From positions 1-27,506 of IMG/VR virus record IMGVR_UViG_3300030333_003542: a stretch of 27,506 nucleotides of DNA; one strand, given 5' to 3'. The translations under genes and the position numbers were made by a program. The notes under the pieces were generated by a model. It had not been told where the DNA came from. It did not search any database and worked only from the letters and a program-made list of their open reading frames with translations. Shown here piece after piece: positions 273 to 23,571 of this stretch (position 1 is the first letter of the stretch; every line of letters begins with the position of its first letter). Source of the stretch: a virus.

Positions 273-2885
273 TTACGAGTCTCCGTTTAATAAAAGTGAT
301 GTTGTTGAAATTGCTAATCCTGCATTGACGCTAGGCGTGTCTGCTGAACTTGAAAAGCCACCAGAGGTGGTGACGTAGTATTTGGTTCCTACGGTTAGGT
401 CTGTAGAAAACTTAGCAACTATACTTTTCCCATAATAACTTGCCGCTGAATCGGCAAATGTAGAAACAATAGATTGTGTGTCTGGATCGTACACTGTACC
501 TAAGTAAGTAACAGGAGTTGTACCTGACCAAACTTCAGGAGTTGAAAAAGTAACATCTGTCCCGCTAATAGTTGCTTTAACTAAATACCCATAAGTAGTA
601 GTTCCGTATTCTTGATAGGAGATAACAACTTGATTTAATGATGTATTGAAAACAGAAGAAGTGTATTTTGCTTTTGCTGAAAACTGTACTACTGTTCCTA
701 CGCTAATTGCAGTTCCACTTACAGTCCCTACTTTTGCAAGTCCAGCTCCTGCGCTACTGGATTCCCTAAAAGCAAAAAGAAGTTTGTTTGCGGTGGAATC
801 GTAACAAACACTTGGGTAATCGTGATAAGCCCCTGCCCCTCCACCTACACTAATGTCCACAGGAGTTCCAAAAGTAATACTTGTTCCACTCACCGACCCT
901 GTTACAGCATTTATGTAGTAAGTCGCTGTTTCTCTGTAAACAATAATTGCTTGGTTTGAAGATGTATCAAAAGCTATGGCGCTACCATTGTCTGCCTCTA
1001 TAGCCTGAGAATCAAAAACCGCTGCGGTTCCGAAACTTATACTCGTCCCTGAAACTGTTCCCACGATAGCTGTGCCATAATTAGAATTACCAGTATCTCT
1101 GTAGCTGACTACTACTTTATTGTTGGAAGAATCATACACAACTTTGCAAGCATCGGTTGATGCAGAATTAAAAACAACCTCCGAACCAAAAGTTATATTA
1201 CCTCCTGCAACTGTTCCCACGATAGCTGTACCGTATCCAGAATTACCACCATCTTTGTATACAACGACAACGGTGTTATTAGACGCATCAAAACATATAT
1301 CAATATAATCAGTAGCGGTTCCTGAATTGAAAACAACTTGCGTTCCATAAGAAATACTCGTTCCACTCACTGTTCCTACATACGCCACTCCATACCCAGT
1401 GGGAGTAGAGCTATCGTCACGATTTACAACTACCACCTTATCAGAATTAGTATCATAGGCTATTGCACCGTAATACCCTCCCGCAGACAAATAGGTAACA
1501 GGACTTCCTGCGCTCAATGTAGACGGCCCTGCCACCCCGCTCACCGTACCACCCTGCACGATTACGCTACCCGCTGCACTGGCTGATATTGCGCTGTCGG
1601 CTACGCCTACGAAATTGGTTGCGGTGAGATTTGATTCGTCAAAAGCTACAGGCCGCACAACTGTCGCGTAACCAAGGTAATCGCTTGTTGGTGCATAAGT
1701 AAAAACGGCCACTCTATCTGTCGAATTGTAAGCGGCATAAAGCTGCCCACCTAGGCTGCCACCAGGAGTATTAAAAGTTACTTCAGAATCTACAGAAGGG
1801 GTTGTCCCACTAACGGAAGCTAATCGATAGACAGCGTTCCCACTTGCGTTTTCGAAAGGTATAACTGTTTTTCCGGCGTTAGAATCAAAAGCTATACCTT
1901 TTCCATAATATGGAGCACCAGAACCAACCATTACAGATGTCCCTACTGTTATGCTTGTTCCAGAAACTTCACCCGCGACAATTTGTGTATCACCACCACC
2001 TGTACGAAACACAACCACGGCTCGATTCGCAGTGGAATCAAAAACAGAAGCAGTTTCATAAGCCTGTGTAGCTTCAAAAGTTACAGCAGAGCCAAAACTT
2101 ATACTTGTTCCCGAAGTTGTTCCTACAACTACTTTACCTTTGGAACTGTCGTCATTATCTTGGAAAAAAATAACTGAGCGATCAGTAGAAGAGTCATAAC
2201 ATATAGATATGTAGTTTGAACTACCTGACTCGAACACAGTAGCCGTCCCAAAGCTGATACTCGTTCCAGACACAGTTCCGACAGCACCGTAACCATACTG
2301 GCTTGCGCTATAATCCATATAAGCAACTATAACTTTATCGTTGGTAGTGTCATAAGTTACATTGTTGTAATACACATTACTTGACGCATAAACCGCTTCA
2401 GAACCGAATGAAATACTTGTTCCTGAAACCGATCCCACGATAGCCGTTCCGTAGTTGCTGTTAGTTTCGTCTTTATACACAGTTACAGTTTGTGAGGTAT
2501 CAGGATCGTAAGTGGCATTTATATAAGTAGTCGTACCGCTATTAAAAACAATGGGAGTTCCATAGCTAATACTAGTCCCACTAGTTGTCGCTACAACGGC
2601 AGTTCCGTATCGGCTATTACCCTGATCTTCATAAAAAATAACCATTTTGTTATTAGCAGAATCATAGACAATAGCTGGATAGTACACATAACCAGTAGCG
2701 CCCGTACCTCCAAAACTTGTTGCTGTACCACCCGCCACTGGATTACTTGTTAAAGTTATACCCGACACCGTACCATCGCTATTAAGTACTACTGGCGCTT
2801 TTGAAGAGATACCGCTGCCGCTGTCAGTGAAGGTCAGTTGTTTTGCCGCTGCCCCTGCGGGGAGTAGATCAGATAAATTGCTCAC
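273..2885 (-). CDS. Tail fibre / receptor-binding protein with 14 repeats (two predicted seven-bladed propellers)
   Basis: 870 aa with a GTG start at 2885-2883 that overlaps the upstream TGA by four bases (GTGA). Residues 1-45 form an N-terminal module (MSNLSDLLPAGA, then PVVLNSDGTVSG) shared with the two upstream paralogues, perhaps for virion attachment. Residues about 69-415 hold seven repeats of about 52 residues. Their conserved YD/FD pairs lie near residues 74, 126, 178, 230, 282, 333 and 386, and each repeat contains a turn like NSNYGTAVVGTVSGTSISFG. A linker with NLTATNFVGVADSAIS follows, then seven more repeats (about 471-835) and a C-terminal module with GTKYYVTTSGGF. Seven plus seven repeats suggest two seven-bladed beta-propellers. 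The role in host binding is inferred from position and architecture. No Asp-box (SxDxGxTW) is visible, so a sialidase is not supported. Confidence 0.8.
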   Translation of the reverse strand: MSNLSDLLPAGAAAKQLTFTDSGSGISSKAPVVLNSDGTVSGITLTSNPVAGGTATSFGGTGATGYVYYPAIVYDSANNKMVIFYEDQGNSRYGTAVVATTSGTSISYGTPIVFNSGTTTYINATYDPDTSQTVTVYKDETNSNYGTAIVGSVSGTSISFGSEAVYASSNVYYNNVTYDTTNDKVIVAYMDYSASQYGYGAVGTVSGTSISFGTATVFESGSSNYISICYDSSTDRSVIFFQDNDDSSKGKVVVGTTSGTSISFGSAVTFEATQAYETASVFDSTANRAVVVFRTGGGDTQIVAGEVSGTSITVGTSVMVGSGAPYYGKGIAFDSNAGKTVIPFENASGNAVYRLASVSGTTPSVDSEVTFNTPGGSLGGQLYAAYNSTDRVAVFTYAPTSDYLGYATVVRPVAFDESNLTATNFVGVADSAISASAAGSVIVQGGTVSGVAGPSTLSAGSPVTYLSAGGYYGAIAYDTNSDKVVVVNRDDSSTPTGYGVAYVGTVSGTSISYGTQVVFNSGTATDYIDICFDASNNTVVVVYKDGGNSGYGTAIVGTVAGGNITFGSEVVFNSASTDACKVVYDSSNNKVVVSYRDTGNSNYGTAIVGTVSGTSISFGTAAVFDSQAIEADNGSAIAFDTSSNQAIIVYRETATYYINAVTGSVSGTSITFGTPVDISVGGGAGAYHDYPSVCYDSTANKLLFAFRESSSAGAGLAKVGTVSGTAISVGTVVQFSAKAKYTSSVFNTSLNQVVISYQEYGTTTYGYLVKATISGTDVTFSTPEVWSGTTPVTYLGTVYDPDTQSIVSTFADSAASYYGKSIVAKFSTDLTVGTKYYVTTSGGFSSSADTPSVNAGLAISTTSLLLNGDS

Positions 2886-4366
2886 GATTGATACTCCAAG
2901 TTAATTGCTGTGGCAGAAAGGGCTTTACCTATTTTTACATCACCGCTTGTCGCAATAGCCCCTGCGTTCGTAACATAATAATCGCTTGCGGGTGTTAACG
3001 AGCTTAGACCTGTGGCTGCTATGCCGCCCTTCATTGTGATGTTCCCACTAGCTGCGCTTGAGATGGCTGCGTCTGATATGCCGAGAAAATTTGTTGAGGT
3101 GAGGTTGGTAAATCCCGGCGTTACAACATTGCCATAAGGGTAATAACTATTTCCGTAATCACTGTATGCAATAATCATTTTGCTTGTATCAGGATCATAG
3201 ACCATTGAATTGAAGAACCAAGCATTAGCGCTACCCGCAGGTGCATGAACTGTTTCGAGATCGCCAAGCACCACAGTTGTACCGCTTAACGTAGCATTAG
3301 TAATGTAACTACCATAATTATCAGGAGAAGTATTATTACCTGTCCAAAAATTTACGCTTTGAGAATTCGCCGTATCAAACCGCATAGTGTTATAATTAGG
3401 ATACTGGTTTTGAGCGGTACTAGTGGTTGTTTTTGTGCCAAAAGTTATAGTATTTGAGGAACCGTCAACTGTCCCTGCAATGTATGACTGATAACCCGAA
3501 TTAGCGTTGTCGTAGTAACTTATGACTACTTTGTCGTTTGCGGTGTCATAAGTTATATTTGGGTTATAAACAGACGAGGCTTGAAATTCAGAGGTAGCAC
3601 CGGTGGGGGTAGCTCCCGAACAATCTATAGTGTAGCACTTACCATTAGCTGTCCCAGTAAGGCCAGTAGCTATAATAACTCGATTTTGATCTGGATCGTG
3701 AACTGCACTTGAAACATCTATTATGTCAGAACCAGAAAAAGCAAAAGAAGAACTTATTGCAGGGGTTGTACCTGTCACGGTAGCCGCCCAACAAATCCCA
3801 ACATTTGTTCCGTTTGCTTTGGCATAAATTAAAGTTTTACTATTACTTGCATCGTAAACACAATAAAGGCGATCTACGTTTTGACTTATTGTTGCTTCGT
3901 TAGAATCATGCACTGTAATGGTCGAGCCAGATAGCGTAGCACAGCCTACTTGGATGTTTGTGCCTGTTTCAAACGCATAAACAATAGAACTTGATGAAGC
4001 ATCATACGCCGCCGCCCACTGTGCTGCATTGATACTGGACTGTATTTCAACAGGTGTACCCCAAGTAATTGTCGTACCACTCACCTCACCTGCTGCAAGA
4101 TAGAAATTGGTTCCTGTGCTAGTAACATAGGCCAAAACAACGCGATCTTGAGAAGTATCGTAATTTAAGATGGAATAATCTCGCGGAGTTATTGAAGCGA
4201 CAGCAGAAGACTGAGCACCAACGGCAAAAGCACCACCTGCAACTTCACTCACTGTCCCATCGCTATTCAAGACAACAGGCTTACCAGAAGAGGTGACGTT
4301 ACCGCTTGCCGTGAAACTTACTTGCTTTCCCGCTCCCGCAGGAAAAAGATCAGAGAGATTCGTCAT
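2882..4366 (-). CDS. Tail fibre / receptor-binding paralogue with 7 repeats (one predicted propeller)
   Basis: 494 aa with an ATG start that overlaps the upstream stop as ATGA. The N-terminal module (MTNLSDLFPAGAGKQVSF, then PVVLNSDGTVSEV) matches the two neighbouring paralogues. Residues about 62-420 contain seven repeats with the YD...YxDxxNS...VSGTTITWGTP pattern, for example YDTANDKVVISYYDNANSGY. Then come the AIS module (TNLTSTNFLGISDAAIS) and the terminal module (DYYVTNAGAI, then GKALSATAINL). It is therefore the single-array form of the 870- and 885-aa proteins beside it. It probably arose by duplication and loss or gain of a whole seven-repeat block. A virion surface adhesin is the best inference; the ligand is unknown. 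Confidence 0.8.
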   Translation of the reverse strand: MTNLSDLFPAGAGKQVSFTASGNVTSSGKPVVLNSDGTVSEVAGGAFAVGAQSSAVASITPRDYSILNYDTSQDRVVLAYVTSTGTNFYLAAGEVSGTTITWGTPVEIQSSINAAQWAAAYDASSSSIVYAFETGTNIQVGCATLSGSTITVHDSNEATISQNVDRLYCVYDASNSKTLIYAKANGTNVGICWAATVTGTTPAISSSFAFSGSDIIDVSSAVHDPDQNRVIIATGLTGTANGKCYTIDCSGATPTGATSEFQASSVYNPNITYDTANDKVVISYYDNANSGYQSYIAGTVDGSSNTITFGTKTTTSTAQNQYPNYNTMRFDTANSQSVNFWTGNNTSPDNYGSYITNATLSGTTVVLGDLETVHAPAGSANAWFFNSMVYDPDTSKMIIAYSDYGNSYYPYGNVVTPGFTNLTSTNFLGISDAAISSAASGNITMKGGIAATGLSSLTPASDYYVTNAGAIATSGDVKIGKALSATAINLEYQS

Positions 4367-7020
4367 CCTGTATAGTCCTTGATATTAATCTGGTTTGTCT
4401 TTATCGCGTTGCCGATTAGCTGACCGCCTGTATCGGTGGATAAAGTGCCGTCTGTCTGAACGTAGTAATCAGTACCTATAGTTAAAGTAGTGGTGGCTAA
4501 TGTACTTACTACGGCAACTCCGTTCCCTGCGTTAGCAGAACCGACAAATGCAAATTTATTAGAGGAAGTGTCGTAGGCAGCTCCAATACCTGTTTGAGAA
4601 GAACCTAAAGAACTTGAAAACCACGTTGACTTTGTACCCCAAGTGCTCGTAGTCCCTGAAATACTTCCATAAAACGCTGATCCTTGGTAACTCGTACCAC
4701 TGGTATGGTCATCACGAAAGGCAAGACCTATTTTCCCTAAATCTGGATCGTAAGCTAGAGCAGCTCCGTATAAAGCCCCATTACCCTGCGAACTAATTGT
4801 TACTGGGGTATTAATAGTGACACTCGATCCACTCATGCTTATGACAGAAAAATATAAGGGGTAGTTACCGCTTGAATCACCATAGTTAATGCCTGTTTTA
4901 GAATTCCCTGAATCGTATATTGTTTCAGGATTCCAAATATAAGGACTACCCGACCCGTATGTGCTTACCGTACCAACCGTACCAGAACCAGAAGAAATGC
5001 TTAAATTCATTGCTTTTAATACCCCGCTTACAGTGTAAGTTACTAAAAACTTACCTTGTGAAGTATCAAAAGCAATATTTCTTGCATTGTAATCCATTAC
5101 ATCGGAGCCGTTGAGAGTAGCTGCGGTATTAAAAGAAATAGCATCTGGCCCTGTTGTTACAGTACCGATGATATAAGTAGCATAGTTGGAATTGCCGTTA
5201 TCACGATAAGTCAACAATACTTTGTTTTCAACGGGATCAAATCCTGCACCAATATAAAAACTGTTAGCACTTTCAAACACTGTAGCTGAACCGAAGGCTA
5301 TGGTGCTTCCTGAACCACTTCCACTAACTGCCCCTACAATCGCCGTACCATAATCAGAGTTACCACTATCACGGTAAGCAATAACAACACGATTGACGTT
5401 AGTATCAAAAGTTAAAGCTAAACCACTATCCCCGCTTGCAGTGCTGCTAAAAACCACAGGCGTACCCCAAGTTATAGAAGTACCTGACAATTCGCCTACG
5501 ACTGCTGTACCATAATCAGAATTGCTACCGTCTTTGTAAGCAACGACTAATCGGTTATTAGTCGAATCATAAACCATCCCGTAATTTTCTGCTCCGGCAG
5601 ACGTATAACCAGTTACAGGAGTGCCGTAACTCGGAGTGACCGTACCAAAAAAATCGTTATTCTCACACCGACTACCCCAAGTGTTTATCGTGCCTGTCGC
5701 TGTGTCGCTGATGGCTGATGGGGCAAGACCTAAGAGGTTGGTTGAGGTGAGGTTGGTTGATTCGGGGACAAAAACGAAACCTGTATTGTAAGCAGTGTTG
5801 TCTCCAATAACTATTACTATTTCTTGTTCAGTGGCGTTATATGCCAAACCTTTATATTGCGAATTTGCGCTATAAAGTAAGGTAGAGCTACTTGCCGTTA
5901 TATCTGACCCGCTCACAGTAAGCTCGATATAATAACTGTAATAAGGACTTCCATTCTCCCGATAAACTAATATTGTTTTATTTACGTTAGGGTCATAAGC
6001 AAGGCCCAGACTATCTGACGTTGGTACTGATCCTAAGACCGTATTAATAGTTCCTAATGTCACCGCATTTGTAGAAGCATCTATTGTTGCAGTTAGCGCA
6101 TTTAGACCAGTACCTGACTTAATGTAGGCAATAATATTTTTACCTGCTGTGGAGTCATGTACAACTAGAGGCCACGAATTTACAGTATCGCTAGAGCCAA
6201 TTTCGACCGCAGAGCCAATAGAGCTTATTGTTGCACTACTATCTGAGCCTGAACAAGTGACTGCTCTGGTGTAAAAAGAATTACCATTTTGATCGTAGAT
6301 AAAAATAAATCTATTTTGCGTTGTGTCATAAGCTAATTCCATCATCGATGAGTATGCAGAATTTATTACCACATCTGAACTACCTATCGTTATTACGGTT
6401 GACCCACTTTGGACAGTTCCACAATGCGCGGTTCCGTAGTTAGAGTTAGCGCCATCCATATAAAAAATACAAAAATTACCTGAGTCAGGATCGAAAGCCA
6501 TTCTTGCGTAAAACATTAACGTCGATGCCGTCCACGATTTTACTGTAACGGGAGTACCCCAAGTAATCGTTGTACCAGAAACGGAACCTGCGCAAACTTT
6601 AAGATACCTCGTGCCTCCTGTTTCTTGCCAACACTGCACAATACGACTATTCACACTGTCATAACAGTTGATAGGGTAATAAGGTTCTACAGAGGCAAAA
6701 TCTGCTCCTGAACCTACGGTAATGGCGTTGCTTGAAGCTTCTAAAACAAAACCTGTGCCTTTGTTAGAGCCACCATTGTAATTATGAAAACCCGCATAGG
6801 TTTTATTGGTTCCCGTGATTTCTGAAATAACTATTGGAGTCATCACGTCTGCCAAAATATTGGTGGCTGTCCCAATAACTGCTGAAGAACCAACAATAGG
6901 CGCAGCCTTCCCATCACTGGTAAGAATAACGGGCGCACCAGAGCTGATATTGCCGTCAGCTACAAAGTCTGTATTGTTTTGACCGCCACCTGCGGGTAAC
7001 AGATCGGCTAAATTGCTCAT
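4363..7020 (-). CDS. Tail fibre / receptor-binding paralogue with 14 repeats (two predicted propellers)
   Basis: 885 aa with an ATG start at 7020, directly abutting the TAA of the upstream fibre gene. The architecture matches the 870-aa paralogue: an N-terminal module (MSNLADLLPAGGG, then PVILTSDGKAAPI), seven repeats (about 62-425) and the linker TNLTSTNLLGLAPSAIS. Seven repeats of the form YDSTNNRLVVAYKDGSNSDY follow, then a C-terminal module with GTDYYVQTDGTLSTD. The second array is the more regular one; the first array has diverged strongly. It overlaps the 494-aa gene by four bases (ATGA). Three paralogues in a row suggest either a heteromeric fibre or a reservoir of alternative receptor-binding domains. 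The function is inferred from context. Confidence 0.8.
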   Translation of the reverse strand: MSNLADLLPAGGGQNNTDFVADGNISSGAPVILTSDGKAAPIVGSSAVIGTATNILADVMTPIVISEITGTNKTYAGFHNYNGGSNKGTGFVLEASSNAITVGSGADFASVEPYYPINCYDSVNSRIVQCWQETGGTRYLKVCAGSVSGTTITWGTPVTVKSWTASTLMFYARMAFDPDSGNFCIFYMDGANSNYGTAHCGTVQSGSTVITIGSSDVVINSAYSSMMELAYDTTQNRFIFIYDQNGNSFYTRAVTCSGSDSSATISSIGSAVEIGSSDTVNSWPLVVHDSTAGKNIIAYIKSGTGLNALTATIDASTNAVTLGTINTVLGSVPTSDSLGLAYDPNVNKTILVYRENGSPYYSYYIELTVSGSDITASSSTLLYSANSQYKGLAYNATEQEIVIVIGDNTAYNTGFVFVPESTNLTSTNLLGLAPSAISDTATGTINTWGSRCENNDFFGTVTPSYGTPVTGYTSAGAENYGMVYDSTNNRLVVAYKDGSNSDYGTAVVGELSGTSITWGTPVVFSSTASGDSGLALTFDTNVNRVVIAYRDSGNSDYGTAIVGAVSGSGSGSTIAFGSATVFESANSFYIGAGFDPVENKVLLTYRDNGNSNYATYIIGTVTTGPDAISFNTAATLNGSDVMDYNARNIAFDTSQGKFLVTYTVSGVLKAMNLSISSGSGTVGTVSTYGSGSPYIWNPETIYDSGNSKTGINYGDSSGNYPLYFSVISMSGSSVTINTPVTISSQGNGALYGAALAYDPDLGKIGLAFRDDHTSGTSYQGSAFYGSISGTTSTWGTKSTWFSSSLGSSQTGIGAAYDTSSNKFAFVGSANAGNGVAVVSTLATTTLTIGTDYYVQTDGTLSTDTGGQLIGNAIKTNQINIKDYTG

Positions 7021-17449: not shown

Positions 17450-17639
17450 CTTCATCATCCATATAGTTACGCGAAAGGTCTTTGATTTCTCGCTGTGCGG
17501 CACTTAGACCTCGAATCATGCCACACGATTCCCGATACTCGGCATAGTCCTTAGCTGCGCCTTGTTCCAGAAATTCTATGTTTGAGGTTTTTATTTCTTC
17601 AATTTTAGCGTCTAACACCTCAAAAACTGTTTTACCCAT
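17442..17639 (-). CDS. Small conserved-looking protein between portal and co-chaperonin, 65 aa
   Basis: 65 aa starting MGKTVFEVLDAKIEEIKTSN, mostly alpha-helical, with one Cys in the stretch YRESCGMIRGL and an acidic end (NYMDDEDD). It begins one base before the end of the portal stop and overlaps the co-chaperonin start by eight bases. I recall short helical proteins of this sort behind phage portals, all without function. Helix pattern and acidic tail would suit a packaging or head-completion accessory. No motif permits a firmer call. Confidence 0.7.
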   Translation of the reverse strand: MGKTVFEVLDAKIEEIKTSNIEFLEQGAAKDYAEYRESCGMIRGLSAAQREIKDLSRNYMDDEDD

Positions 17640-20143
17640 TATCTATCCTCTCTATCATCACGGTAGGCTTCCGATGCGTCACGATGTGCTTCTGCTCTGG
17701 TTCGTTTTTCTTCACCTTCTGCTTTAGCCAAATCAATGAGAACCTTAACCGCTTCAATATCAGTTTTTCTATTTTGATCTGCGTTCTGTGATTCGATACG
17801 AGCCGCTTCTTTCGCTGCATCTACTACTACACGGCGTTTATCTACATCAACACGTTCCTGCGCGATAGCTATATCTGCGGCATCTTTCTCGCGTAGACGT
17901 TGTTCTGCCTGTGCTTTTAACTCCAGTTCTGCTTGTTGCATTTGAACTACAGGGTCTTGAGCCTGTTCTTCTGCGGCTACTTGTGCAGCTTCAGCCTGAT
18001 GTTGCTGAGATAGCTGCGCCCCTGCCTTAGCCATTAGCTGAGACAACGGAACTTCCATACTTTCCGGCAGTTCTGCATTCGGATCAGGTAACGGAGCACC
18101 AAGTTTCTCTTCCATCTGTTTTCGGTACATAAAAGCTGTATGTTCAGCTATGTGTGCCTGTAACTCTCCTACCACCATCTGCCCATTAGGATTCTGCCCA
18201 ATAGCCTGTGCAATCATGGGGTCTTCCAAGAACGCAACGTGAGTAGCAATATGAGCTTCATGGTCTTGAAACATAAAGGCTTTTACTGGTGAGCCTGTTA
18301 AGGCATCCATGTTTTCACTAACTGGGTCTGTCGGAGTCATGTCTTCAGATAGCGGTACTAGCGTGTCAGCATTCTTCACCCCAAGTACTTCTATCATCTG
18401 CCTATGTAACTGAGGCAAGTCATATATTTCAGGTACAGCTTGCGACATTTGCATGACAGTCTGGTACTGCACTACCCTTTGAGCCATCGTAGTGTTATTA
18501 GGATCACTTACTGGAATAACATCAGTAGTATCATAGTCTTGCCTTCTGGCGCGTGGCTCACCCCGTTCTGGTAAATAGATATATTCTTCAGGGGCATACT
18601 CGCCAATGATTGCGCGTAACAGTTTGAATTCCTGCTTCATCGCGTAATGCACACGAGCTTGCACTGCTGCCATAGGTTTTAAGGTACGTTCTAAAATAGC
18701 GAGCGTTGTACCTACAGGAGCATTTGCGCTCATGTCAGATACATTCATATCACTAATAGCCCCTAGCCTACGGCCTTCTTCAGTAATCTGATTGAGTAAG
18801 GCAAGCAACGTTTGGCTTGGTTCCTTGTACGGAAGGTGCATTATGTTGTCGCGGATAGACCCTCCGGGTACGTCTACATCCCTAAACTCTCCCGGCCCTA
18901 TTGGAGAATCATCACCTGATACACGTAACCCACGCGCTTTTAAGCCGCCGGGAAGGTTAGATAACGTTCCTGCGTCAACTAATTGACGGATCAACGAAGT
19001 ACCTGCTCTCGCATAACCGCCAATAATGTGAATTAAACCAAGGCCATAGAAGCCAAACCCCGGCACGTAAGAGTAATGGACAAAATGTTGACGCTTGAGG
19101 AACAAAGGATCGTCAGGCTGCCAATTACGGCGGATGGCTAATACCTTACCCGTTCCCCGTTCGATGGTTACTACATAAGGTTTAGCGACTTGTCCGGTAT
19201 CTGTATCATTCTTACCTTCTTTGGTAATGAATGTATCGTCGTCTTCATCTATAACCAGATCAGCATGAACCTCATATAACGTATACCTATCATCATCTTC
19301 TATAGATATACCGCCTTCCTGCGCTTTTTTCTCTTCTACATCTGTGTGGAACGGTTGAGGGTCACCTAAATCAACAGGTCGATAAAATCCTGCCTTATGT
19401 AACTTAATGATTTCATTCTTGGTTTTACGCATTACGTGAGTTACACGTTCTGCGGTCTCTATATTAGAAGCACCATAAGGTACGATTACATCTTCGGCAG
19501 GAATGAATATGGCTACCTGTCGTCCTAAACTAGGGTCATAGTATATTTTCTTAAAGGCTGACCCTGCTAATCCTAAGCTGTACAGCATCCGTTCATGTTC
19601 AGGTCTGTACTCCACCATGACTTCAGTAAGCTCATAGTTCATATCCGTTTTAACGCGGTCTGCGGCATCTTCCTTTTCGCGTGTCATTTCACCAAGTATT
19701 TTAGTTTTTACTGGGCCACCTGCGGGAAAGGTCTCAGCCATAGCTTCAGCTTGGAAACGAATAGCTGCTTCAGCTAGTACCGTAGAAAACACTCCGCAAG
19801 CGTCTTCCCACGGTTGGTCACGTTGTTCGTACTTAAACCCAAGTACTTCTAACCCTTTAACAAACGTATCAGCCCAATCTTTACGGCTGTTTACATCTGA
19901 TTCTACATAACCTACTAGCTCTCCAGATAAAGCTTCAAGCGTAGTTTCTTCCATGTATTCTGCTATGTTGGCATCAAACGGCGCTCCTATCATCTCAGCA
20001 GGAATACCTGTCTCTGGCACTAAAGTGATCTCCATAGAGCCATCACTCATAGTTACCATTTCAGGCTCTACGACATTAATCTCTAAAGCCTCTGTAATTT
20101 CCTCTCCATCAGGTGCGGTAAGTATACCTTTCTCAATCGCCAT
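17639..20143 (-). CDS. Portal protein
   Basis: 834 aa. The gene lies directly after the large terminase, the usual place of a portal gene. The body contains a helical wing and stem (GFGFYGLGLIHIIGGYARAG and TSLIRQLVDAGTLSNLPGGL near residues 370-405) and a crown-like region. Residues about 640-690 hold two similar units, DHEAHIATHVAFLED and QAHIAEHTAFMYRKQ. The C-terminal 130 residues are a long Gln/Ala/Glu/Arg-rich coiled coil (QQAELELKAQAEQRLREKD, later ending YRDDREDR). This size and tail are longer than in lambda-type portals and nearer to large P22- or podovirus-type portals, whose helical barrel also runs into the capsid. The family is inferred from memory. Confidence 0.8.
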   Translation of the reverse strand: MAIEKGILTAPDGEEITEALEINVVEPEMVTMSDGSMEITLVPETGIPAEMIGAPFDANIAEYMEETTLEALSGELVGYVESDVNSRKDWADTFVKGLEVLGFKYEQRDQPWEDACGVFSTVLAEAAIRFQAEAMAETFPAGGPVKTKILGEMTREKEDAADRVKTDMNYELTEVMVEYRPEHERMLYSLGLAGSAFKKIYYDPSLGRQVAIFIPAEDVIVPYGASNIETAERVTHVMRKTKNEIIKLHKAGFYRPVDLGDPQPFHTDVEEKKAQEGGISIEDDDRYTLYEVHADLVIDEDDDTFITKEGKNDTDTGQVAKPYVVTIERGTGKVLAIRRNWQPDDPLFLKRQHFVHYSYVPGFGFYGLGLIHIIGGYARAGTSLIRQLVDAGTLSNLPGGLKARGLRVSGDDSPIGPGEFRDVDVPGGSIRDNIMHLPYKEPSQTLLALLNQITEEGRRLGAISDMNVSDMSANAPVGTTLAILERTLKPMAAVQARVHYAMKQEFKLLRAIIGEYAPEEYIYLPERGEPRARRQDYDTTDVIPVSDPNNTTMAQRVVQYQTVMQMSQAVPEIYDLPQLHRQMIEVLGVKNADTLVPLSEDMTPTDPVSENMDALTGSPVKAFMFQDHEAHIATHVAFLEDPMIAQAIGQNPNGQMVVGELQAHIAEHTAFMYRKQMEEKLGAPLPDPNAELPESMEVPLSQLMAKAGAQLSQQHQAEAAQVAAEEQAQDPVVQMQQAELELKAQAEQRLREKDAADIAIAQERVDVDKRRVVVDAAKEAARIESQNADQNRKTDIEAVKVLIDLAKAEGEEKRTRAEAHRDASEAYRDDREDR

Positions 20144-20153
20144 TATTTAATCC

Positions 20154-21722
20154 TCAGTAGTATCCACCATGCCGTCTACTACGGAACATGGGTGGATCAT
20201 CTTCTCTGTCAGTGGGAAGCTGTATAAAACCGCCTTGTCGGAAACGCATTAGCGCCATAACTGTAGAATCCACCAAGTCGTCATTGCTCATAAATGGGAA
20301 TCCGGCAATTTCTTCTACTACTTCTTCTGCCCATCGTGCTTGCGGAACCCATACCAATCCTGATTGTACAATATCTGCGACAGAATTTAAGCGAGCAGTT
20401 TTATCGCCAGAGCCTCTATGGGGGGTATATTCCTGCACAATAAGCCCCATTCTGCGTAATTCTTGGTACAGGGCTGTACCGCTGCTTTTCTTTTCCACAA
20501 TAAACGAATCGGGTTCCCACTCATTAAACTGTTCCAAAGCTAGTTGTTTTAACGCAGGAAACTCTACTCGTGTCTTAATAGAGTTAAGAAGAATAATGTT
20601 ATGGGCATTTTCTTCCTCGTTAAAAAACACACCCCACGTAGTCAAGGCAGTGTAGTCAGCGCGGTTATGAGTTTCAGCCGCTGCGTCCAAAGACATAATT
20701 ATGTACTCACAAGACGGAGGGCGTTCTTCCTCCCACTGTTTCCACCATTCCCGCTTTACCAGAGCAGCTTCTTCTGCGGTAGGTTCCTGTTGATATTGAG
20801 CATTCCACTGGAATAGCGGCATTGAAGCCTTGGTACGATTAAGCGCATCCAAGTCAAAGAACTCAGGCCAAAGTGGTTTCTCAACCATAGCCCCTTCTCT
20901 TTCTATTTCAATAATTGCAGGAAATTCAACGACTTCGTACTGGTCAGCCAACTCGTTCATCATCATGTCACGAGTCACCCGTCCTGTCAGATCATCCAGA
21001 TGCCACCGAGTCTGAATAATAGCTACCCGACCTCCGGGCATCAGACGAGTTCGAGCACCGAAGGTAAACCATTCGTATGCCTTATCAAACACATCGAAGT
21101 TACCACTCAATACATCCTGCTCCGAGTGGGGGTCATCTACCAGTAAAAGATCAGCACCCCGTCCTGCGATAGAGGAACCTATTCCACAAGCGTAGTATTC
21201 GCCGCCCACGTTAGTGTTCCACCGCCCTGCACTCTTGGAGTCGTGAGCAAGCTGCACAGTGGGGAAGATAGACTTATACGCATCTGTAGATATGAGGTTA
21301 CGTACCTTACGACCAAAATCTACAGCTAAATCAGTGGTATGGGACACCATCATTACTTTCTTAGTAGGGTTACGCCCTAGAAACCAAGCAGGAAAATAGA
21401 TAGAAACTAGCTGAGACTTACCGTGACGGGGCGGAATGTTGACACATATCCTGTCTTTTCCCTTTTCCGCCTCTTTTCCGCTCTCAATTTCCATCAACAG
21501 GTCAGCTAGTATGCGGTGATGGCTACCTACTTTGTAATCCGGCTGCATTAAGCAGCAAAATTCAATCAAATCGTTATAACACGCTTCAGCCCGTTGTTTT
21601 TTATCCAGTTCTTCAAGAAGTTTGTCCAGTTCTTCCTGTTCTTCCAACGTATAGTGGTCTAAATTGTCCAACATCAACTGGATTTCAGAGGGGGTAAACT
21701 CCTGAGGGGTAATGTTACTCAT
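20154..21722 (-). CDS. terL: Terminase large subunit
   Basis: 522 aa with both terminase domains. ATPase: Walker A NIPPRHGKSQ (residues 95-104), Walker B DLLLVDDPHSE (191-201) and the coupling motif IIQTRWHLDDLTGR (235-248). Nuclease: first acid in IIMSLDAAAETHNRADYTAL (D346), second in DSFIVEKKSSGTALYQEL (E410), third in DDLVDSTVMAL (481-491). The protein pumps DNA into the procapsid through the portal and cuts it at the end of packaging. It overlaps the upstream zinc-ribbon gene by four bases (ATGA), and the portal gene follows ten bases after its stop. The start was fixed by this overlap. Confidence 0.95.
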   Translation of the reverse strand: MSNITPQEFTPSEIQLMLDNLDHYTLEEQEELDKLLEELDKKQRAEACYNDLIEFCCLMQPDYKVGSHHRILADLLMEIESGKEAEKGKDRICVNIPPRHGKSQLVSIYFPAWFLGRNPTKKVMMVSHTTDLAVDFGRKVRNLISTDAYKSIFPTVQLAHDSKSAGRWNTNVGGEYYACGIGSSIAGRGADLLLVDDPHSEQDVLSGNFDVFDKAYEWFTFGARTRLMPGGRVAIIQTRWHLDDLTGRVTRDMMMNELADQYEVVEFPAIIEIEREGAMVEKPLWPEFFDLDALNRTKASMPLFQWNAQYQQEPTAEEAALVKREWWKQWEEERPPSCEYIIMSLDAAAETHNRADYTALTTWGVFFNEEENAHNIILLNSIKTRVEFPALKQLALEQFNEWEPDSFIVEKKSSGTALYQELRRMGLIVQEYTPHRGSGDKTARLNSVADIVQSGLVWVPQARWAEEVVEEIAGFPFMSNDDLVDSTVMALMRFRQGGFIQLPTDREDDPPMFRSRRHGGYY

Positions 21723-21931
21723 TCAGTAGCAAGCCGCCTTTCCTGTACAGGTACAGCCCCTATTTTAGCTGCTCCCCACTTACCTTCAGGGCAACTAGCC
21801 CCCATAAACCACACTTTAGCGGGCATAATACAGCCGCATTTCTTACACTGGTGGATTTTTGGACGCAGGTTAGGGCAACTAGCGCATATATCTATGCGAA
21901 TACTGGCTACATCACGCTTAGTTATTTCCAT
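21719..21931 (-). CDS. Cys-rich zinc-ribbon protein between terminase genes, 70 aa
   Basis: 70 aa with six cysteines: C16-AS-C19, C29-KK-C32-G-C34 and C47, followed by PEGKWG. The order CxxCPxxR...CxxCGC...CPxGKW matches a small family I remember as DUF6171-like; this was not searched. Such proteins probably bind one or two zinc ions. It lies between the small and large terminase genes and overlaps both (14 bases with the small subunit gene, four with the large), which suggests a packaging-related accessory role. A virion role cannot be excluded. Confidence 0.8.
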   Translation of the reverse strand: MEITKRDVASIRIDICASCPNLRPKIHQCKKCGCIMPAKVWFMGASCPEGKWGAAKIGAVPVQERRLATE

Positions 21932-22472
21932 CTTCAGCCACCTCGTACACCCCTTCAGCGTTTTGCTTTAAATCTTCCAGTTTCTCACGCAACTTAGTAC
22001 GTAGTTCATCAGCATTTTGATGAGTTACCGTTATCTCTTTACGTTCTGTGAACAAACCTACCTCAGTCATCTTGCCAAGGTTCTCTAATGCACGTAATCG
22101 TACCCGCGCATCGGGGTTTTCAGTCTCCAGAATCAGTTTATTAACAACAGTATGGCGTATTTCTGCGGCTCTATTAGCTACAAGCTGCCCAAATTCTTTC
22201 AGAATAGCCCCAGTTTGCACTAAAGATGCAGGGGTTAGCGTGCTTGCGCGTGCCGTAGATACTTTTTTGGAAGTTTTTTCAGGGTTGGCGGCGTAGGACT
22301 CAACCAAAACACTGGCTGTATCCTTATCTATGTCAGTAGGTTCAATATCCAGACCATGTTCCTCAAGGAATGTAGCTGTATTACAAGCCGCTTCTGCGCG
22401 TTCACGCAAATCCATGTAGGTCGAATTGGGTGGAATCTCTATTCCCACTTCGGGTATTAGCTCTAAAGCCAT
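21918..22472 (-). CDS. terS: Terminase small subunit-like protein
   Basis: 184 aa, first gene of the minus-strand operon. The centre is helical (SLVQTGAILKEFGQLVANRA) and is followed by a basic-acidic stretch, RLRALENLGKMTEVGLFTER and then KEITVTHQNADELRTKLREK, a pattern I recall from small terminases of marine phages. Small terminase would recognise the packaging site on the genome and recruit the large subunit encoded two genes downstream. No clear N-terminal helix-turn-helix is visible. The start has a moderate GGGGT ribosome-binding region and lies about 35 bases after the predicted transcription start. Confidence 0.7.
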   Translation of the reverse strand: MALELIPEVGIEIPPNSTYMDLRERAEAACNTATFLEEHGLDIEPTDIDKDTASVLVESYAANPEKTSKKVSTARASTLTPASLVQTGAILKEFGQLVANRAAEIRHTVVNKLILETENPDARVRLRALENLGKMTEVGLFTERKEITVTHQNADELRTKLREKLEDLKQNAEGVYEVAEDGNN

Positions 22473-22513
22473 TTGTTACCCCATCGCAAGCTATAACTAG
22501 CTGAATTGCTTGG

Positions 22514-22541
22514 ATTATAGCTATAAAAATTTTTAAGGCAA
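22514..22541 (-). promoter_or_regulatory. Promoter of the packaging/capsid operon
   Basis: On the minus strand TTGCCT (22541-22536) is followed after 16 bases by a perfect TATAAT (22519-22514). The predicted start near 22507 leaves a leader of about 35 bases to the ATG of the small terminase gene. A 12-bp perfect palindrome, TTATAGCTATAA (22515-22526), overlaps the -10 box and could be an operator. Confidence 0.7.
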
Positions 22542-22570
22542 GGAGGTTGGGACTCCTAAGGGGGGTATTT

Positions 22571-22610
22571 CCACAAAATGTCACAAAACAACACAAAAAC
22601 CCACAGAAAA
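22571..22610 (+). repeat. Phased decamer array 1 (CACAAAA, four units)
   Basis: CACAAAA begins at 22572, 22582 and 22592, and a variant CACAGAAAA begins at 22602, so the units recur every 10 bases exactly. Between them two or three bases vary. The A-tracts are thus on the same face of the helix, which favours intrinsic bending or side-by-side protein binding. Confidence 0.75.
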
Positions 22611-22651
22611 AAGGGGGTACCCATTAAAAATGCAAATCGTTTGAGCGAAAT

Positions 22652-22678
22652 AGTATTACTAGCATAGCTAGTAATACT
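22652..22678. repeat. 27-bp palindrome, operator-like
   Basis: Two perfect 12-base arms, AGTATTACTAGC and GCTAGTAATACT, are separated by ATA. It stands between the two decamer arrays, just before the G-tract. It could be the binding site of a dimeric regulator or an RNA hairpin; a TTTATA stretch follows on the plus strand, but the low GC content argues against an efficient terminator. Confidence 0.75.
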
Positions 22679-22688
22679 TTATAAGATT

Positions 22689-22711
22689 GGGGGGGTGGGG
22701 GTAGGGTAGGG
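22689..22711 (+). other. G-quadruplex motif
   Basis: Four G-runs of 7, 5, 3 and 3 bases are separated by T, TA and TA. This meets the usual G3+N1-7 rule with very short loops, which favours a stable parallel quadruplex in single-stranded DNA or RNA of the plus strand. Confidence 0.7.
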
Positions 22712-22770
22712 TTAAATTAGGCTTTCTATATAAATCTATACCCCGTCTTACTTCTATTTATAGATGGGAC

Positions 22771-22820
22771 ACCACAAAACTACACTAAACTAAATTAAAC
22801 CAAATAAAACGACATAAAAC
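22771..22820 (+). repeat. Phased decamer array 2 (AAAC every 10 bases, five units)
   Basis: AAAC ends five consecutive decamers, at 22777, 22787, 22797, 22807 and 22817. The units (CACAAAAC, CACTAAAC, AATTAAAC, AATAAAAC and CATAAAAC plus two variable bases) share the consensus MAYWAAAC, close to array 1. The two arrays are about 200 bases apart and flank the palindrome and the G-tract. Confidence 0.75.
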
Positions 22821-22854
22821 CCCATTTAAAAATAAAACTATGCTCTAATTGAAC

Positions 22855-22901
22855 CATCGAACAAGTTTGTACCGTTCGATTCCGGACGGGCTTGTTCGGT
22901 G
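22855..22901 (+). promoter_or_regulatory. Stable hairpin in the leader of the plus-strand operon
   Basis: CATCGAACAAG (22855-22865) pairs with CTTGTTCGGTG (22891-22901) over 11 positions with one T-G wobble. The 25-base loop contains CCGT and ACGG, which can form an inner stem. If transcription starts upstream this is a 5' leader structure; as DNA it is a spaced CGAACAAG dyad. Confidence 0.6.
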
Positions 22902-22914
22902 TTGTATACACTCA

Positions 22915-22928
22915 GCCCTAAGGAGGGC
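22915..22928 (+). promoter_or_regulatory. Hairpin over the ribosome-binding site of the 211-aa gene
   Basis: GCCCT (22915-22919) can pair with AGGGC (22924-22928), with AAGG as loop. The Shine-Dalgarno AAGGAGG (22920-22926) lies in the loop and 3' arm, so folding would limit ribosome access. The ATG follows at 22936. Confidence 0.55.
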
Positions 22929-22935
22929 ATTTACT

Positions 22936-23571
22936 ATGACTACAAAGTCAAAAGGTAAACGCGCAAGTAAACCCGTAACTTTTAGTACTGAGCAAGTAGA
23001 GCTTGCCAATACCATTATAGACAAGGCCGCTGATCTGGCGACCGCGACTGTAGAATGGTTCACGGCATTGTTCTTAATGGGCGTCGTCCCTACCGCCATG
23101 CGCGGTGGTCAGAAAATAGGTGAGGCGATTAAGGAGCAAATCCTAATCCCTCGCTTGGTTTCTGAAACCGATGCCAAATTTGTCAAACGATTTCTGGAGG
23201 TTGGTTCTAAGACTGACTTAGAGATCGACGGCAGAACTCAGAAAAAGGAGCAGGTTTATAATACTCGGATCACTAAGCGATTGAATACTTTAACCAATGG
23301 TTATAGTGCTTGGTTGGCTAGTGAGCACTCAATGCACGAGCATGGAGACAAGCTCGTAAAAATGCAAGGGAATAATGCAGGCGTTGCATCTACTCCAGAA
23401 GCTAGAATCGACCATGCAGAGGCTCGTATAGCTCTCGCATTCGTCGACAAGCGGATGGCAGTGATTCGCAATAGGAGTTCCGAGAAACGTGACACTACAG
23501 ATATGCTCTGCCTCAAGCAGTATGAGGCCCTCGCTGAGTTACTGAAGGGTCACCGCGTGAAGTCCAAGTAA
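22936..23571 (+). CDS. Unknown protein, first gene of plus-strand operon, 211 aa
   Basis: 211 aa from ATG at 22936, which follows the strong Shine-Dalgarno AAGGAGG at 22920-22926; an in-frame ATG at 22849 lies inside the leader and has no ribosome-binding site. The protein is alpha-helical and basic: starts MTTKSKGKRASKPVTFSTEQ, contains a hydrophobic stretch EWFTALFLMGVVPTAM (not long or pure enough for a sure membrane segment), and later KDLEIDGRTQKKEQ-like charged helices. I do not recognise it. Being the first gene on the divergent side, it is probably expressed early and may act on DNA or on host functions (inference). Confidence 0.7.
   Translation: MTTKSKGKRASKPVTFSTEQVELANTIIDKAADLATATVEWFTALFLMGVVPTAMRGGQKIGEAIKEQILIPRLVSETDAKFVKRFLEVGSKTDLEIDGRTQKKEQVYNTRITKRLNTLTNGYSAWLASEHSMHEHGDKLVKMQGNNAGVASTPEARIDHAEARIALAFVDKRMAVIRNRSSEKRDTTDMLCLKQYEALAELLKGHRVKSK

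Follow-up and report, generated by a model that had tools for sequence, protein, structure and literature searches.

A proposed terminase-linked cis-acting control site in an uncultured marine phage group

Gene order around the divergent intergenic region

The window, a 27.5-kb viral contig (27,506 nucleotides), comes from a virus of bacteria that belongs to a large uncultured marine phage group. Its open reading frame map places a 463-bp divergent intergenic region (22473-22935) between the terminase small subunit gene, terS, on the minus strand and the first right-hand gene on the plus strand. The minus-strand genes run leftward in the order terS, a 70-aa ORF, terL, portal, a GroES-like protein, the major head protein and tail-side genes. 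The terminase large subunit gene, terL (20154-21722, minus strand, 522 aa), matches phrog_38 with an E-value of 1.5e-103 as well as Terminase_6N/6C, and the portal gene (17639-20143, minus strand) lies to its left. Three successive large ORFs at 273-7020 (870, 494 and 885 aa) carry similar repeated motifs, SGTSISFG and YDSSNNK, and are apparently paralogous tail-side proteins. The right-hand, replication-side unit opens with a 211-aa gene (22936-23571, plus strand) that belongs to no family and is found in close relatives only, and further genes on the plus strand encode a PNKP-type phosphatase (polynucleotide kinase in PHROGs), an ATPase and proteins of unknown function.

The gene at 21918-22472 (minus strand, 184 aa) was assigned as a putative terS because 44 of the 52 members of its family match the phrog_51 terminase small subunit, because the family profile aligns with the Pam5 and SF6 proteins, and because of its position adjoining terL. 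The profile matches are individually weak: those to phrog_51 have E-values up to 0.05 (best 2.1e-4), and the family profile gave 0.006 against the solved Pam5 TerS and 0.1 against SF6 TerS (3zqp). An AlphaFold model of the protein had a pLDDT of 71, and a fold search with this model returned no significant match. In Planktothrix phage Pag-Yong1 (L260), a gene at 2588-3140 deposited as 'hypothetical protein' matches the TerS family profile with an E-value of 1.2e-6 (526 ORFs searched) and is probably the terS of that phage. The sequence GGGGGTGGGGGTC after this gene was considered as a copy of the conserved element described below and rejected; it forms one side of a G/C hairpin directly after the stop codon, a terminator-like arrangement.

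The near-complete relative G017 (63.6 kb, with 135-bp overlapping ends at 99%) gives the layout of a whole genome. It consists of two transcription units that diverge from the conserved element, the sole starting point of both, with terminase and structure genes on one side and replication genes on the right. PolA lies 10-14 kb right of the element, on the same strand, in G001, G003, G006, G017 and G018, and helicase and primase genes lie beyond it in G017. In G017 the cumulative GC skew is lowest at 0.5 kb from the site, in G016 at 4.5 kb from it. The gene right of the intergenic region is divergent in 77 of 80 relatives. The first right-hand genes of the relatives form 20 clusters without detectable similarity to one another, so that the right-hand neighbours change and the element stays with terS.

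Conserved blocks upstream of terS

The most conserved sequence of the region is a 19-bp core, TTGGGACTCCTAAGGGGGG (block A, 22547-22565, plus strand; also written TTGGGACTCCTatGGGGGG or TTGGGACTCCTnnGGGGGG). It stands just left of the left decamer array and just outside the segment (22571-22820) described in the initial annotation. Among 2.9 million viral contigs, the core pattern was found in 99 stretches, 92 of which have it beside terminase genes in the same orientation; its distance to terS is mostly 65-166 nt. The core is kept though TerS identity drops to 27-33% and TerL identity to 47%, and ten contigs with lengths of 20-61 kb each have a single copy. The pattern had six matches in 257 Gb of cellular genomes, against approximately 30 expected by chance from base counts.

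Some contigs depart from this arrangement. L156 has two tandem copies of the core, 55 bp apart, and the layout of L100 is similar, which suggests iterated binding sites. A non-terminase context for the pattern (GCGTTGTTGGGACTCCTACGGGGGGCGAAGCCGCCCC) is common to L123, L129, L141 and L150. In three contigs a small nuclease-like ORF (GPVDLVVVDPETREVVLLDAKKD, PD-(D/E)xK-like by eye) is inserted directly at the core, to its right in L034 (2442-2783) and L126 (4575-4880) and to its left in L110; the sole family match of this ORF is phrog_5018, of unknown function.

Two further blocks lie to the right of the core. The conserved half of block B, GCAAATCGTTTGAGCGAAATAGTATTACTAGC (22632-22663, plus strand), was recognised from aligned blocks in 66 non-redundant relatives, and block C, a G-tract with the sequence GGGGGGGTGGGGGTAGGGTAGG(G) (22689-22710, plus strand), is 96-100% identical in close relatives. 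The combined B and C module reads TTTGwGTG-AAwTAGTATTAC, then GCGGAGTCCC in many members, then GCGGGGGGTGGGGGTAGGGT, and of the 153 loci in which the sequence upstream of terS extends for at least 500 nt, 134 have it there. TAGTA and the G-run are separated by a median of 42 bp (IQR 41-42), about four helical turns, and by 39 bp in the window. The G-run motif is almost absent outside the site. Next to terS, the window and more than 100 relatives have a conserved, oriented, single-copy element with fixed spacing. The resemblance of TAGTATTAC to the plant-virus nonanucleotide was considered to be due to chance, as it is not conserved as such (TAGTATGTA and TAGTAATAC in relatives).

The initial annotation had proposed a symmetrical design in which two decamer arrays enclose a palindrome and a G-quadruplex. 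The 27-bp palindrome is indeed present at 22652-22678 (plus strand), with two perfect 12-nt arms and a 3-nt centre, and it takes the place of the GCGGAGTCCC of relatives. It is a lineage-specific form of block B: the left half is conserved, and in the window, L081 and L001 the right half became its inverted copy, a change not seen in L003 (87% TerS identity) or in more distant relatives. The G-tract also has its four runs, of 7, 5, 3 and 3 nt, at 22689-22710. A four-run motif, however, is found in only 21 of 78 non-redundant relatives, and a C-run of at least five occurs on the same strand in 13. Because the quadruplex motif is restricted to 21 of 78 relatives and the palindrome to the closest ones, neither is the conserved function. 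The palindrome and G-tract are a local form of the B and C module, and what is conserved is the double-stranded sequence rather than a quadruplex. The symmetry is not supported either, since the arrays occur only in the closest relatives and the palindrome is gone in L003. What survives of the proposal is a composite regulatory region between two divergent operons. Conservation lies in a set of terS-linked blocks at fixed spacing, most of which the initial annotation had missed.

Between block A and terS lies a putative sigma70-type promoter for terS and the late genes (22514-22541, minus strand), with a -35 hexamer TTGCCT, an A/T-tract spacer of 16 and a -10 hexamer TATAAT. Hexamers with the 16-18 spacing of sigma70 promoters are thus found at terS. 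In relatives the arrangement is TTGYMA, an A/T-tract spacer and TATNNT, with a best score of at least 9/12 in 47% of relatives and in 16% of shuffles. A C-run (G on the plus strand) stands 17-20 nt upstream of the terS -35, with or without the A-core. On the other side, a possible -10 of the rightward unit, TATGCT (22839-22844, plus strand), was recognised by eye; it is weak, lacks a clear -35 and was not picked up by the promoter scan, and CTATGCTnTAATTGAACCATCGAACAAG at this place is common to L081 and L001.

Two kinds of inverted sequence accompany these promoters. A short inverted repeat, GCTA-gtta-TAGC (22490-22501, minus strand), lies close to the predicted 5' end of the terS transcript. 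Such a repeat is found at this end in 45% of relatives, compared with 3.8% of a shuffled control, and its stems differ among relatives (GGTT/AACC, AGCT/AGCT, GGTC/GACC, AGCC/GGCT), followed by TGCG; it is possibly an RNA hairpin or an operator controlling terS. Between the rightward gene and block C, many relatives have operator-like palindromes of differing sequence (TTTAGGGAnnTCCCTAAA, TTCGGGCAnnTGCCCGAA, GTTAGTGnnnCACTAAC) at one position; the window has its right decamer array there instead.

Outside the group, the closest cultured or named phages are HTVC023P-type podoviruses (HTVC023P, HTVC027P, 023Pt_psg01), with TerL at 46% and portal at 39-43% identity. Genomes of this type are reported to circularise on terminal overlaps (PMC9599517). 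They differ from this virus in having terS apart from terL and in showing no such element in the stretches compared. Likewise, no matching element was found in the stretches compared from HTVC023P, HTVC027P, CRP-901/902, Caulobacter RW and Pag-Yong1, all with related TerL or portal, and the motifs were not found in the terS upstream regions of CRP-901/902. Distant blastn searches of 50,697 phage records with the intergenic region and with consensus blocks A and B-C returned no matches or matches at chance level, and a TerS tblastn search of phage records returned no match; no cultured phage in the collection searched carries the element. An Rfam scan of 22300-23100 gave no match, and among the papers listed by a literature search on the motif strings all were unrelated.

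Decamer arrays of the closest relatives

The left array (22571-22610, plus strand) has four units with a 10-bp period. The repeat CACAAAA, previously described as occurring in all four, is exact at 22572, 22582 and 22592, while the fourth unit, at 22602, reads CACAGAA, with one mismatch. The right array (22773-22820, plus strand) has five units ending in AAAC, at 22777, 22787, 22797, 22807 and 22817, in the exact 10-bp register reported, followed by an A-rich tail to 22838 in which a sixth AAAC, at 22835, departs from the register. We compared the 463-bp intergenic region with 2,000 shuffles that preserve dinucleotides. The identity at an offset of 10 bp was 162 compared with 120.5 expected (z 4.4), a value reached in none of the 2,000 shuffles, and AAA pairs 10 bp apart numbered 11 compared with 1.6 expected, again 0 of 2,000. 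Five AAA in a 10-bp register occur nowhere else in the window on either strand, and in 0 of 2,000 shuffles.

The two arrays differ in predicted curvature, which was estimated with a wedge model. The left array has the highest value in the window, a level reached by 3-6 of 1,000 shuffles. For the right array the value lies within the top 1-2% of the window and is reached by 140-423 of 1,000 of its own shuffles. The suggestion that phased A-tracts bend the DNA here is thus supported by prediction for the left array and not for the right.

The 10-base phase is retained in the closest relatives. L081 and L001 share these decamers, but a clean 10-bp deletion leaves each of them exactly one unit short in the right array, and L003 preserves the left register, including AAAC, despite substitutions. 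With autocorrelation above that of shuffled sequence and phase kept in close relatives, the helical phasing proposed in the initial annotation stands. At the place of the right array, L003 has a different 10-bp repeat (ATCTATCACT, 4.9 copies) and L004 has TCTAATCACA in 2.6 copies, with a 9-bp repeat elsewhere in L004. The repeat unit therefore turns over (AAACTACACT, ATCTATCACT, TCTAATCACA) and the 10-bp period persists in the clade, since every close relative with sequence there has this period at the homologous place with differing units. The decamer arrays are confined to the closest relatives, and period-10 enrichment as a family-wide property was rejected, as period 10 is no commoner than period 7 in 36 non-redundant relatives. 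The arrays are a clade-specific addition to the larger conserved element upstream of terS.

A persistent period with a changing unit fits selection for helical phase and also fits repeated slippage. It is rather unlikely, in our estimate, that the arrays are neutral, functionless slippage repeats inside a functional region, an explanation limited to the arrays, which would fit any reading of the region as a whole. The clean loss of single units in L081 and L001, the turnover of the unit sequence together with the 9-bp repeats of L004, and the failure of period 10 to exceed period 7 across the 36 relatives all speak for it. The occurrence of the 10-bp period at the homologous place in all close relatives with sequence there, despite differing units, speaks against it, as do the left-array substitutions of L003 that leave the AAAC register intact.

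Packaging, transcription and replication readings

The region is best read as a terminase-linked cis-acting control site. What it controls was weighed against known systems. The pac site of SPP1, which includes direct repeats, covers the terS promoters and the beginning of terS (PMC4737164); its cleavage site, pacC, is flanked by the TerS sites pacL and pacR, and pacL is intrinsically bent and wrapped (PMC4856287). Like the pac sites of SPP1 and SF6, the element is located at the terS promoter and 5' region (22473-22565 adjoins terS, and the same is true in relatives). The arrays and G-run blocks flank block B and may correspond to the repeats on both sides of a central region in those sites, although the arrays are clade-specific. 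Bent DNA may be a third likeness, here predicted only, with the left array above shuffles and the right array not, and the TerS profile of this family gives a weak alignment with the core of SF6 TerS. Unlike those sites, the repeats are A-tract decamers and G-run blocks, and the spacing of B and C is fixed at ~42 bp. In lambda, cosB has repeated TerS sites, static bends and strict spacing (PMC4856287), and the element resembles cos (cosQ-cosN-cosB), likewise a composite site adjacent to terS in which recognition blocks are repeated, A/T tracts would form static bends and the spacing is strict. In contrast to lambda cos, contigs run through the site and the flanking genes are divergent. The terS promoter with upstream phased A/T tracts and a rightward unit opposite also resembles divergent sigma70 promoters with phased A-tracts, but the most conserved sequence is that of long G-rich blocks rather than hexamers, and the rightward promoter is unconvincing in the window.

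The most likely reading, in which our confidence falls only slightly short of even, is that packaging is initiated at this site, which would overlap the divergent late and early promoters, and that the arrays act as bent DNA. Its location, orientation, single copy, fixed spacing, phased arrays and predicted left-array bend argue for it. It is further favoured because the core pattern stands beside terminase genes in 92 of 99 cases and is below chance in cellular genomes, and because the element stays with terS as its right-hand neighbour changes. TerS would recognise replicated DNA here by binding the repeated G-run/GGGACTCC blocks A, B and C, and packaging would start. In the clade that has them, the phased A-tract decamers may be bent spacers that help wrap the DNA on the TerS ring, like SPP1 pacL, and TerL would then cut nearby. 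With the terS promoter inside the site, terminase binding could also tune late transcription, and packaging from the site would put the early and replication genes at one genome end. A tentative extension of this reading, held with less confidence, is that the site is of a new packaging type, with G-rich blocks A, B and C at fixed helical spacing, fused with the sole divergent promoter pair and carrying clade-specific bending arrays.

Contig ends were also considered. They are enriched right of the core: 18 of 87 lie within 150 nt of it, most of them at or next to G-runs, and there are others in L221, L226 and L246. As a sign of a cos site they were rejected, because a scatter over G-runs suggests assembly or sequencing breaks; the absence of ends on the left is probably due to selection for contigs with hallmark genes, and the break hotspot may hide the element from complete-genome sets. 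Contigs, including near-complete ones, cross the site without a sharp end, although metagenome contigs can also come from concatemers. None of seven large contigs had exact terminal repeats, and the 135-bp circular-type overlap of G017 is compatible with headful permuted genomes, no more.

Several observations weaken the packaging reading. The C-run keeps a constant distance of 17-20 nt to the -35, and a transcription-factor site accounts for this equally well or better; contigs cross the site with no sharp end; the arrays are restricted to the closest relatives; TerS identity depends on weak profile matches, with an empty fold search; and related isolates are without the element in the stretches compared. 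A close rival, possible though on balance not probable, is that the region is purely a divergent late/early promoter pair, in which a regulator of phage or host origin binds the G-run/GGGACTCC blocks upstream of the terS -35 and the phased A-tracts, as curved DNA lying upstream of both promoters, serve as enhancers. This would account for the conserved sigma70-like terS promoter and its A/T-tract spacer, more frequent in relatives than in shuffles, for a C-run whose distance is kept regardless of the A-core, for an element that heads both transcription units of G017, and for operator-like palindromes such as TTTAGGGAnnTCCCTAAA between block C and the rightward gene in relatives. A regulon, however, predicts copies at other promoters, and there is one copy per genome, always beside terS. 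The ~75 bp of B and C with their 42-bp spacing are long for a single regulator site, and the ~65-105 bp between the left array and the predicted terS start site downstream of it are a long distance for a simple enhancer. An origin of replication, with the arrays as iterons, the A/T-rich segments as an unwinding element and the G-tract marking strand asymmetry, is possible but improbable. A single copy, AT-rich phased repeats, a replication module that starts on one side and the nearby skew minimum of G017 would all suit it, yet every one of these points is also explained by divergent transcription, which by itself predicts a skew minimum, and the minimum of G016 is distant. Iteron origins have conserved iterated initiator sites, whereas the decamers occur only in the closest relatives and most relatives are without these repeats, which are therefore not the conserved initiator sites. 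The element also follows terS and not a replication gene, with PolA 10-14 kb away.

To our knowledge, packaging sites are known in detail only for a few laboratory phages. If the packaging reading is correct, a family-wide, sequence-defined element beside terS would give a handle on how uncultured marine phages recognise their own DNA, and their genome ends and packaging modes would become predictable from metagenomes. The arrays, gained, lost and rewritten at a constant 10-bp period, would be a natural series for DNA bending in terminase assembly. If the function is purely transcriptional, the region would still be the master switch of these genomes.
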